DNA from: Enterobacteriaceae bacterium RIT693
Lineage (GTDB): Bacteria; Pseudomonadota; Gammaproteobacteria; Enterobacterales; Enterobacteriaceae
Direction: 5' to 3'
DNA: 64,000 nucleotides
Assembly: GCA_009668225.1 (NCBI GenBank)
Contig: WJYK01000002.1
Location: forward strand, 186,001 to 250,000
Position 1 is the stretch's first letter, and every line of letters begins with the position of its first letter. Below are positions 14,726 through 48,737 of this stretch, one piece after another. Below the pieces are notes generated by a model. It was not told where the DNA came from, ran no database searches, and saw only the letters and a list, made by a program, of their open reading frames with translations. Made by a program: the position numbers and the translations under genes.

Positions 14726-14737
14726 TCGGGAATCACA

Positions 14738-14762
14738 TTCCCTCTCCCGCAAGGGAGGAGAT
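14738..14762. repeat. REP-like GC hairpin after ydeP
   Basis: The sequence reads TTCCCTCTCCCGCAAGGGAG followed by GAGA. CTCCC and GGGAG arms surround a GCAA loop. It resembles the short palindromic repeats common between enterobacterial genes and may serve as the ydeP terminator. It lies 39 bp before the 575-bp repeat element, mirroring the arrangement at 48026. Confidence 0.6.
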
Positions 14763-14800
14763 ATTGCTCACAGATATTCTCCATGATGGCTCAGCTTAAG

Positions 14801-15375
14801 TTCCGTTCACTTTCAGCCCTGTTTTATCTGTAACCACCGCACCAGTGAACGTCTCAGGGGAATCACCGTCATTCCCCCGAGACCCCGGACTCCCGGCCAA
14901 ATAAATCGACCGCTGAAGCGGCAGACCTCCGTTTTATCTCCCAGTCCTGGGTCGGCTGAGATGCGTTCCCGACGCTCTCAGCCTCCGGCAGTTCCCGACG
15001 CCCGGACCCTGGCCAGTCGGAGAGAAAACGGAGGCGATTTAAGCCGGAACCGTGCCGCGCTTTAAACCCGCAGCCATGCTGAACATCACAATCGCTTCCG
15101 GTTCAACAGCCACGCCCTTGTCCCCGGCTCTCAGCGCCCCCGGTTATGACCCAACTCAGGCGGGGTTGAGCTGTCGGGAACGGCGAAAGAGAGCGATCGT
15201 CGGGAACGAATCGCGAACGACCCCGAATGTTTGGGTGATTGCCGGTGGGTTTACCGCTTCAGCGGCGATGAGCTCGCCGGGCGCGGGGGGTTGTCAGGGG
15301 GAATGGCGTAATTCCCCATGACACGTTCACTGTTTGCTTAGCTTGCAAGGAAAACGGCTCTAAAGGTGAACGGAA
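14801..15375 (+). repeat. 575-bp dispersed repeat with terminal inverted repeats, copy 1
   Basis: The element begins TTCCGTTCAC and ends with its exact reverse complement GTGAACGGAA. A second, inverted copy lies at 48096-48667. Inside are two strong hairpins: 14851-14883, arms GTCTCAGGGGAAT and ATTCCCCCGAGAC, and 15292-15323, arms TGTCAGGGGGAAT and ATTCCCCATGACA. Palindromic CCGCTGAAGCGG boxes and GTTCCCGACG boxes are also present. The landmarks occur in the same order and at nearly the same distance from each end, so the element is two related modules facing each other. The flanking trinucleotide AAG occurs on both sides, a possible but weak target duplication. No protein-coding constraint is evident. 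Confidence 0.85.
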
Positions 15376-15410
15376 AAGTCGCGTTGCTTACATACGGGAT
15401 ACTACGAAAC

Positions 15411-30735: not shown

Positions 30736-31048
30736 GAATCCTGGGCTCTCAGGAAGCCGGGTAGCGCCGGTTTTCTGAAAAAACGCCGGTTTATCCCCCC
30801 CACCAAATGTGACAACGTCACTTCACGTTAACATTTTTAAGACAAATCTTTACTTTTCTCCCTCAGACCAGAAGCCATAAGGCCTGGGCATTACTTTATC
30901 CGCTAAACCATTAGCCACTTAATTGTCGCCAAAGCTGGAATCCTTCCCGCTGCGTTGCTATAGCTCCAGACACCCTGCCGACACATGGCATAACAACAGG
31001 CTGCCCCTCCGGCGGCGATAACGCGTGCACCCAGGGAGACACACTGCA
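30736..31048. other. Intergenic region dmsD-osmY with hairpin
   Basis: This 313-bp gap contains no gene that I can support. Near its start, at 30749-30778, a hairpin forms from TCAGGAAGCCGG and CCGGTTTTCTGA around GTAGCG (10 Watson-Crick pairs plus two G-U pairs as RNA). It may end the ynfE-dmsD transcript, although no T-run follows. The remainder must carry the osmYXWV promoter. I could not assign its boxes with confidence. Confidence 0.5.
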
Positions 31049-31765
31049 ATGCAAAACGCATCCTTCGCAACACGGTTCCTGCTCGGACTGCTTGCGCTTA
31101 TTTTAGTGCTCGGTCTACTGGTTTGGGGCATTGGCCTCGATACCCTTAAAGCCCGCCAGGTCGATTTACTCTACCTCGGGCAACAACACTTAATTCTGGT
31201 CTTCAGCTCTATGGCACTCGCCCTGCTGGTTGGTATTCCCAGCGGGATTTTGCTGAGCAGACCTGCGGCTCGCCGCTGGGCTGAGTACGTGATGCAAATT
31301 TTCAACATCGGCAACACGCTGCCGCCGCTTGCGGTGCTGGCGCTGGCGATGGTGATCATCGGCATCGGCGACAAACCGGCCATTATAGCCCTGTTCCTCG
31401 CCTCGTTGCTTCCCATCGTACGTAATACCTATGCCGGACTTTGCAGCGTCCCCGCATCGCTTATTGAGGCCGCCAACGGTATTGGCATGACCAAAATGCA
31501 GCGGCTACGCCAGGTTGAAATCCCCAACGCCTGGCCGGTGATGCTTTCCGGCGTACGTATTGCCACCGCAATCAACGTCGGTACCGCGCCGCTGGCCTTT
31601 CTTATCGGCGCGAGCAGCTACGGCGAGCTTATCTTCCCGGGAATTTACCTGAACGACTTCCCGACGCTGATCCTCGGGGCCGTGGCGACGGCACTGTTCG
31701 CCCTGATCCTTGACCTGGCGCTCGCCAGCCTGGGCCGGGCGCTGAGCCCCCATACCGCTAAATAA
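31049..31765 (+). CDS. osmY: OsmU osmoprotectant ABC transporter permease OsmY
   Basis: This is one of two permeases of the OsmU importer, which takes up glycine betaine and related osmoprotectants in Salmonella. The 238-residue protein has about six membrane helices and the binding-protein-dependent permease signature (EAANGIGMTKMQRLRQVEIPNAWPVM). The ATG at 31049 gives a hydrophobic N-terminus typical of the family; an upstream start would add eight polar residues. Gene order permease-binding protein-permease-ATPase and position next to dmsD and clcB match Salmonella STM1494-STM1491 as recalled. Confidence 0.88.
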   Translation: MQNASFATRFLLGLLALILVLGLLVWGIGLDTLKARQVDLLYLGQQHLILVFSSMALALLVGIPSGILLSRPAARRWAEYVMQIFNIGNTLPPLAVLALAMVIIGIGDKPAIIALFLASLLPIVRNTYAGLCSVPASLIEAANGIGMTKMQRLRQVEIPNAWPVMLSGVRIATAINVGTAPLAFLIGASSYGELIFPGIYLNDFPTLILGAVATALFALILDLALASLGRALSPHTAK

Positions 31766-48025: not shown

Positions 48026-48059
48026 CCCTCACCCCGGCCCTCTCCCAGAGGGAGAGGGG
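48026..48059. repeat. REP-like hairpin after tqsA
   Basis: CCCTCACCCC precedes a palindrome of CCCTCTCCC and GGGAGAGGGG with a short AGA loop. It is the same family as the unit at 20152-20252 and lies 9 bp after the tqsA stop and 36 bp before the 572-bp element. It probably terminates tqsA. Confidence 0.75.
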
Positions 48060-48095: not shown

Positions 48096-48667
48096 TTCCG
48101 TTCACCCATAGATCTGTTTTCCCTGCACGTTCCCGGCACGGTGAACGTGCCAGGGAGATTACGCCATCTCCCTGGCAACCCCGGCGCCCGGCAAGCTCAT
48201 CGCCGCTGAAGCGGTAAACCCACCGGCTATCACCCAAACAGTCGGGGTCGTTCGCGATTCGTTCCCGACGATCGCTCTCTTTCGCTGCTCCCGGCAGCTC
48301 AACCCCGCCTGAGTTGGGTCATAACCGGGGGCGATGAGAGCCGGGAACAAGGTCGTAGCTGTGGGACTTGCAGCGACTTTTATGTTCAGCGTGGCTATAA
48401 GCTTGAAGCGAGGCTCGGTTCCGGCTTAAATCGCCTCCGTTTTCTCTCCGACTGGCCAGGGTCCGGACGTCGGGAACGGCCGGAGGCTGAGAGCGTCGGG
48501 AACGCATCTCAGCCGACCCAGGACTGGGAGATAAAACAGAGGTCTGCCGCTTCAGCGGTCGATTTATTTGGCCGGGAGTCCGGGGTCTCGGGGGAATGAC
48601 GATGATTCTCCCGAGACGTTCACCGGTTCGGTGACTGCATATAAAACAGGGCTGGAAGTGAACGGAA
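48096..48667 (-). repeat. 572-bp dispersed repeat with terminal inverted repeats, copy 2
   Basis: This copy is inverted relative to 14801-15375 and has the same ends, TTCCGTTCAC and GTGAACGGAA. Long stretches are nearly identical (for example the segments around GATTTATTTGGCCGGGAGTC and GATCGCTCTC), with a diverged centre (about 48350-48425). Hairpins lie at 48148-48177 (arms TGCCAGGGAGAT and ATCTCCCTGGCA, perfect) and 48585-48617. No target-site duplication is evident at this copy. With the REP hairpin it fills the 721-bp gap between tqsA and the esterase gene. Confidence 0.85.
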
Positions 48668-48737
48668 ATTTAACCGGCCCTGCATAGCCGAGGATATTTG
48701 TGATTTAGAGGCAGCCGCTGAGGGATGAAGGGAAAAA

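Follow-up and report, generated by a model that had tools for sequence, protein, structure and literature searches.

Dispersed inverted dimers of a TRIP1-type repeat unit in an Enterobacteriaceae genome, with signs of mobility in Enterobacter

The closest described system is the TRIP1 repeat of E. coli, which is credited to Rudd 1999 by Li et al. 2024 (PMC10888264). In the latter account, five TRIP1 types of 146–273 bp (TRIP1a, c, d and e: 264–273 bp) were described as GC-rich, with a predicted 'double-Y' RNA fold and rearrangements between copies, and TRIP1a was placed at 915016–915281 in K-12. All five E. coli loci lie 38–96 bp downstream of a stop codon, and the role of the repeat was termed unclear; in the parts of this account that were at hand, other genera, terminal inverted repeats (TIRs), target duplications and dimers go unmentioned (PMC10888264). 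A second relative is the TwoAYGGAY RNA (Rfam RF01731; Weinberg et al. 2010, PMC2864571), a motif to which no function is assigned in the portions of literature that were found. Among the papers listed, an open-access literature search returned no title or abstract in which TRIP1 is linked with another genus, with TwoAYGGAY or with the ends of transposons, and yielded chance string matches only for the end motif of the element described here. The analysis below joins TRIP1, TwoAYGGAY and high-copy repeats of Cedecea, Buttiauxella, Lelliottia and Enterobacter, which stand separately in the literature found.

The window, i.e. the whole stretch of 64,000 nucleotides that was analysed (Enterobacteriaceae bacterium RIT693, contig WJYK01000002.1, positions 186,001–250,000), holds two copies of a dimeric element: copy 1 at 14801–15375 (+, 575 bp) and copy 2 at 48096–48667 (inverted, 572 bp). 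Positions, lengths and the identical 10-bp ends (TTCCGTTCAC / GTGAACGGAA) had been given in an earlier note made from the letters of the window, and all were found again. The copies share 89% identity over their full length (copy 2 being place C12:234096-234667 of the genome), and copy 1 contains a single ORF of ≥60 aa (89 aa, without Pfam match), hence no coding capacity. Each copy is a dimer in which two homologous units of ~250 nt are joined in inverted (5'-to-5') orientation. In copy 1, the left unit occupies 14801–15047 (structured strand minus; alignment, and profile match 1–249 at L001 1747–1501 with E 1.2e-17) and the right unit 15124–15375 (structured strand plus; alignment), and the junction of both units, including a variable central spacer, lies at 15048–15123. 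In copy 2, the homologue of the left unit was placed at 48421–48667 (+) and that of the right unit at 48096–48344 (−; profile match at L011 1715–1501, E 8.3e-19), the inner limits of both being approximate. Because two homologous units are joined 5' to 5', the element is an imperfect palindrome, with 66% self-complementarity when the whole element is compared with its own reverse complement.

The 10-bp ends had been read as terminal inverted repeats; they are instead the ends of the structured units, GTGAACGGAA being the 3' end of the left unit of copy 1, at the outer edge on the minus structured strand. Transposon ends, where visible, lie ~50–100 bp further out, and weaker conservation extends ~50–60 bp past the 10-bp ends. 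On the left of copy 1, an outer-flank remnant (14764–14800) resembles the flanks of other copies by eye; the outer flank of copy 2 (48668–48714) carries a Tn5/IS50-like end at 48695–48714, with 2 mismatches to CTGTCTCTTANTCACAAATA. A REP-type palindrome adjoins copy 2 at 48026–48058 and was found also at the empty site L204.

A search of the source genome for many intergenic copies had been suggested in the note, which counted the repeat as present twice in the window; about forty places were found in the genome, not two. In the RIT693 genome (5.04 Mb, 51 contigs; host genus presumably Cedecea), the element was scored at no fewer than 40 distinct places, 36 of them near full length, and this count is a lower bound for which 40 of 73 first-look candidates were scored; three further unit-bearing places were seen beyond the scored 40. 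The end motif was present in 78 arms (43 + 35), and the reversed control pattern in 0, so that the repeat stands far above chance. All seven other genomes of the host genus that were searched gave matches to the element. For 30 aligned RIT693 copies, the mean pairwise difference was 0.7–1.3% in the end boxes, 3% in two multistem domains, 12–16% in the hairpins, 21% in the central spacer and 25–32% in two long loops, rising to 47–59% in the 50 bp outside each end. The near-identical blocks and diverged centre first noticed in the two window copies are thus reproduced block by block. At L012, L016 and L029, left-type loop sequence was found at the right end, which represents an exchange between the two inverted units. 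At L179 (RIT693, C12:347300-349500), a REP-type palindrome apparently stands in place of the central spacer; REPs thus also enter the element.

By profile comparison, the ~250-nt unit is assigned to the TRIP1 repeat family. Searches of E. coli and of plasmids with a RIT693 copy as query gave no match, and the link emerged only when units from Enterobacter and E. coli served as intermediates. A profile of 14 alignment rows (one an E. coli unit) that left out Cedecea and Buttiauxella gave E values of 3.8e-22 to 1.2e-17 for its best 14 RIT693 matches, with both halves of the element matched in L020 and L030, and none of 29 properly shuffled loci fell below E 1; the remaining control, S020, comes from a truncated locus and kept its element unshuffled. 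The Cedecea profile recovered E. coli units at 2e-13 and, weakly, K-12 TRIP1a at 1.3e-3; the profiles tested against one another are row subsets of one joint alignment. The K-12 match (915039–915223; L167 2540–2724) lies between aqpZ and lysO, inside the published TRIP1a interval (915016–915281). A unit match was present in 5375 of 5426 complete E. coli genomes, at a median of 3 places each. Shared with TRIP1 are the homologous unit, the GC-richness, the stable predicted fold and the position downstream of stop codons; the unit here measures 242–252 nt up to the closing stem (TRIP1 types: ~265 bp), with the common fold kept. The two differ in that TRIP1 occurs in E. coli as single repeats in few copies, whereas in RIT693 inverted dimers occupy about 40 places, with other loop sequences and Tn5-like outer ends. 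The earlier note had allowed for the copies being fragments of a described mobile element: TRIP1 has indeed been described, in the available parts of its account as a single unit and not as a mobile element.

Grouping of profile matches at 107 loci (two loci without match), drawn from a scan of named contigs that used the end motif as its anchor and lists a minimum of genera, gave the layout of units by genus. Outward ('-+') pairs were found in Buttiauxella (11, plus 2 triples), Lelliottia (3), Cy-643 (2), Cedecea (1, plus 2 arrays), Leclercia (1) and Yokenella (1). Single units occur in Enterobacter, Escherichia, Pluralibacter and Superficieibacter. The 24 Enterobacter groups comprised 23 single units and one '--' pair, with no outward pair; Leclercia and Silvania had one '--' pair each, Escherichia one '++' group, and Superficieibacter, Phytobacter and Pluralibacter single units only. 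A further 27 groups at loci without a genus label were 21 single units, 3 '-+', 2 '--' and 1 '+-'. Outward joining is the common joined layout, and others exist too. In Cedecea davisae (among L071, L083, L092 and L101), alternating arrays, one +-+- and one +-+, were seen beside single dimers.

When 295 genomes were drawn evenly from the order, 7 carried the end motif in its exact form. All 7 belong to the host family, of which 23 genomes were drawn (RIT693 included), and the 272 genomes outside the family had none; the reversed control gave 0 throughout. So strict a motif passes over diverged members, K-12 TRIP1a among them, and the count therefore understates the family. The Enterobacter unit gave no match to phages and matched 22 PLSDB records (5 at 80–90% identity, 17 at 60–80%); among the 20 records listed, 4 were longer than 4 Mb. 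Two further BLAST matches, in genomes G011 and G033 of other genera, were weak (E about 4e-4) and were judged to be chance.

The unit comprises a closing stem, a pair of hairpins with GGGA loops, the hairpin termed A and a terminal hairpin. In the left unit of copy 1, the terminal hairpin (14801–14851, minus strand) has a nearly invariant 7-bp stem (CGTTCAC/GTGAACG) enclosing a variable loop of ~33 nt, and hairpin A (14852–14882, minus strand) shows compensatory changes in its stem, counted over 104 arms with left and right pooled. For the fold, 24 rows from nine named genera (23 picked at ≤ about 88% similarity, one Pluralibacter row by hand) were aligned at a mean column identity of 70% and subjected to RNAalifold, which returned 45 pairs, 20 of them with changes on both sides. 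In this fold 95.6% of cells were paired, a percentage favoured by deriving the structure from the same alignment, and the terminal stem reached 99.4%. The covariation score was 0.297, vs. 0.108 in shuffles, which ignore relatedness, and ≤0.053 with partners slid; helix 2 covaries between sides ~150 columns apart. A measure of further pair types (35 vs. 32.4 in the control, with 67 of 500 shuffles as high) was not above control. Across 171 units, G-U exceeded A-C cells in the raw count (155 vs. 58), to a lesser degree by cluster (44 vs. 31), and barely after one closing pair was left out (34 vs. 30). On this alignment, one covarying fold is kept by the unit across the nine named genera, which is not claimed as proof that the unit acts as RNA.

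Mobility was most legible in Enterobacter. In E. hormaechei DSM 14563, the unit lies within a MITE of ~428 bp with the inverted ends CTGAGGG(T/A)TCCCC, which resemble the IS10 end. Of the 38 TIR motifs in this genome, 34 formed 17 pairs spaced 425–429 bp apart and 4 were unpaired (reversed control: 0); no wider-spaced TIR pair able to hold a transposase gene was found with up to 3 mismatches. The E. mori genome, the second one searched, had 12 end motifs: two pairs spaced 427 bp apart, one pair 146 bp apart, and 6 motifs without a partner. Both ends were seen in 20 distinct arms of 128 examined in the named loci, all from Enterobacter and 12 of them from E. hormaechei DSM 14563. Exact 9-bp direct duplications bordered 16 of these 20, vs. 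3.8 by permutation (p = 5e-5), the register of some rows having been set by hand; a rerun that started from the loci and let each side shift by one base, in the permutations as well as the data, again gave 16 of 20 and a mean of 3.8. Those without an exact duplication were L069, L074 and L121 (6 of 9 bases each) and L086 (8 of 9). The duplications are of the CCCnnnGGG type, which is the loop of the REP palindrome, and REPs flank many copies, with one next to copy 2; 14 Enterobacter loci were read for flanks, one of them (L144) from E. cloacae and the rest from E. hormaechei. Judged from these sequences, the unit has evidently transposed in Enterobacter with a 9-bp target duplication, and TRIP1-type repeats would thereby gain a mobility mechanism, namely target duplication in REP loops. 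In Enterobacter, the inverted ends and the 9-bp duplication are those of MITEs with IS10/IS50 (IS4-family) ends. Unlike such MITEs, the element carries as cargo a long-conserved structured unit common to two unrelated end sets, and an autonomous partner was not found.

In the host genus, CTGTCTCTTAGTCACAAATA-like sequence, which resembles the Tn5 mosaic end, was found at 19 sites in the outer flanks of RIT693 copies with ≤3 mismatches (reversed control: 0 + 3); many flanks lack a clear transposon end, the ends being Tn5-like and decayed, and inspection by eye of the 37 copies that have both ends revealed no convincing 9-bp duplication. The Tn5 DNA-binding domain (PF14706) had 0 matches in the RIT693 genome, DDE_Tnp_1 was represented there by only two fragments, one broken by stops, and no autonomous partner or helper transposase was found in this genome. 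At L039 (genome G034), an ORF downstream of the element reads like the start of a putative IS110-family transposase.

Copy 2 is absent at the corresponding site in all seven other species of the genus; the empty sites are convergent gaps of 52–175 bp, five of them with clear REP palindromes (by eye). A single insertion of copy 2 is a probable account, simpler than seven losses. The site of copy 1 had no match in six of the seven other species, and in G006 the element stands beside an extra gene. At four of these seven sites that were read (L195, L197, L200 and L201), this extra gene, an O-methyltransferase-like ORF (named by eye), stands in the gap, and it is missing in RIT693 (window 14726–15410), possibly through an element-associated deletion. 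Transposition in the host genus would likewise have proceeded with a 9-bp duplication. The earlier description as a 'MITE-like or structural-RNA repeat' gains support on both counts, from the Enterobacter duplications and host-genus empty sites and from the covarying fold; that the element is a dimer of the known TRIP1 unit had been missed.

The placement of copies was compared with that of other gaps ≥30 bp in the named loci, using the same simple ORF picker throughout. Between convergent genes lay 23 of 30 RIT693 copies (those fetched as loci, of at least 40) and 35 of 56 named units (those of the 107 loci that had ≥1.5 kb and a called gene to either side), vs. 71 of the 335 background gaps (p = 1.3e-9 and 1.6e-9, respectively, by Fisher's test); the counts include non-independent orthologous copies and two B. 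agrestis assemblies, and a second gene-context count gave 22 of 30 for RIT693. In tandem settings, the unit was nearer to the 3' end of the upstream gene in 10 of 16 named and 4 of 7 RIT693 cases. A location between convergent genes is thus a strong placement rule. A promoter scan returned no promoter-like site in either window copy, and terminator-like sites numbered 1 (vs. 1.1 expected) and 3 (vs. 1.1 expected) in the two.

The explanation favoured here, and considered somewhat probable, is a non-autonomous mobile element of Enterobacteriaceae with a conserved structured TRIP1 cargo, spread in trans and kept at the 3' ends of genes. Two units, commonly joined 5' to 5' in the host genus, Buttiauxella and Lelliottia, would be moved by cut-and-paste. 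The putative agents are helper transposases, probably of the DDE (IS4-type) class, that would work in trans on the outer ends; these are IS10-like in Enterobacter and, in the host genus, probably Tn5/IS50-like. Copies would persist where they are least harmful or somewhat useful, i.e. downstream of stop codons and mostly in convergent gaps. Since joining 5' to 5' makes the structured strands face outward, read-through from either neighbour gene would transcribe one unit in sense, and the unit is in this way presumed to be transcribed. The folded transcript, or the extruded DNA, might then give the 3' ends of converging mRNAs passive protection or form a passive barrier there, a putative function at the 3' end.

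The same data could be produced by a purely selfish MITE family, the interior of which would be conserved by recent amplification and gene conversion and the stems by quasipalindrome correction (template switch), with no selected function; this is regarded as rather unlikely, yet it accounts well for copies that are mosaics of stem variants, for the exchange of arms between the two units in L012, L016 and L029, for the near-identity of the Enterobacter copies in the flanks and units read, and for an RNA strand preference that is not clear from G-U vs. A-C cells. It fits poorly with the about tenfold gap in divergence, within the same 30 copies, between multistem domains (3%) and loops (25–32%), with compensatory changes in helix 2 that are ~150 columns apart and not readily explained by local template switching, and with a fold retained over nine named genera (mean column identity 70%). 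Neutral accounts (purging of insertions elsewhere, quasipalindrome correction) may hold for some of the data.

A further reading, also regarded as rather unlikely, is that one fold has travelled on at least two unrelated end sets (IS10-like in Enterobacter, Tn5-like in Cedecea), was dimerised outward and is kept between convergent genes for the work it does there, for instance by preventing collisions through read-through or by stabilising the 3' ends of mRNAs. The unit would then be a passenger of use to its host, outliving its vehicles and switching from one transposon to another as a means of dispersal. The function of the unit could be tested in a laboratory strain, because nearly all complete E. 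coli genomes (5375/5426) carry a unit match.

A chromosome-architecture or supercoil element between convergent genes, acting as a cruciform or as a putative site for gyrase or a nucleoid protein, appears improbable. A role of this kind has been proposed for BIMEs, and the convergent bias, the palindromy of the whole element (66% self-complementary) and the REP neighbours agree with it; against it, a convergent bias is also expected from purging of insertions in promoters and operons. With REP/BIME/REPIN sequences the element shares the character of an intergenic palindrome, and REPs flank copies and serve as insertion target in Enterobacter. Their palindromic unit is 20–40 bp long, whereas the unit here is about ten times longer and has other ends, and REPs stand apart as neighbours or target; identity with REP/BIME was ruled out by size and anatomy, as the earlier note had judged. 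ERIC, the remnant of a group II intron and a cos site of a phage were also considered and provisionally set aside.

The relation to TwoAYGGAY was assessed with Rfam models. The Pluralibacter unit scored 45.3 bits (cut-off 43), and at E up to 0.001 matches were obtained in 21 of 149 family genomes, 12 of them over the cut-off, vs. 0 of 14 control genomes; the RIT693 genome gave 0 matches. In genome G034, three sub-cut-off matches (38.8–40.2 bits) each lay 39 bp from one of its three element arms. Both have two neighbouring hairpins whose loops, read on the structured strand, are of GGA type, but the RIT693 loops read UCGGGAA, not AYGGAY; K-12 has AUGGAU in one loop. The TRIP1-type unit overlaps TwoAYGGAY in part. 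A reading in which the unit works in trans as a structured RNA, or serves through its ~33-nt variable loop as an RNA guide, with the transposon ends as its vehicle, is quite improbable: a variable loop clamped by a nearly invariant stem and TwoAYGGAY matches over the cut-off in 12 of 149 family genomes would suit it, but both window copies lack a promoter-like site, a partner protein was not identified, and the loops are nearly alike in seven E. hormaechei copies, unlike those of a diversified guide.

A permissive Rfam search of copy 1 (E up to 10) gave chance-level matches only, TwoAYGGAY not among them, and a search of the whole window at gathering thresholds returned nothing at the element; its sole match over threshold was an opuB ncRNA motif (RF04314) at 30919–31056 (+), with 115 bits. 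Within TRIP1-type units, an extra hairpin-rich module of ~75–80 nt, apparently a nested small repeat, was noticed by eye at L093 (Buttiauxella), L109 (Leclercia), L110 (Escherichia whittamii) and L149 (Cedecea sulfonylureivorans), positioned after the GCCGC..GCGG hairpin in L109 and L110 and within a loop hairpin in L093 and L149.
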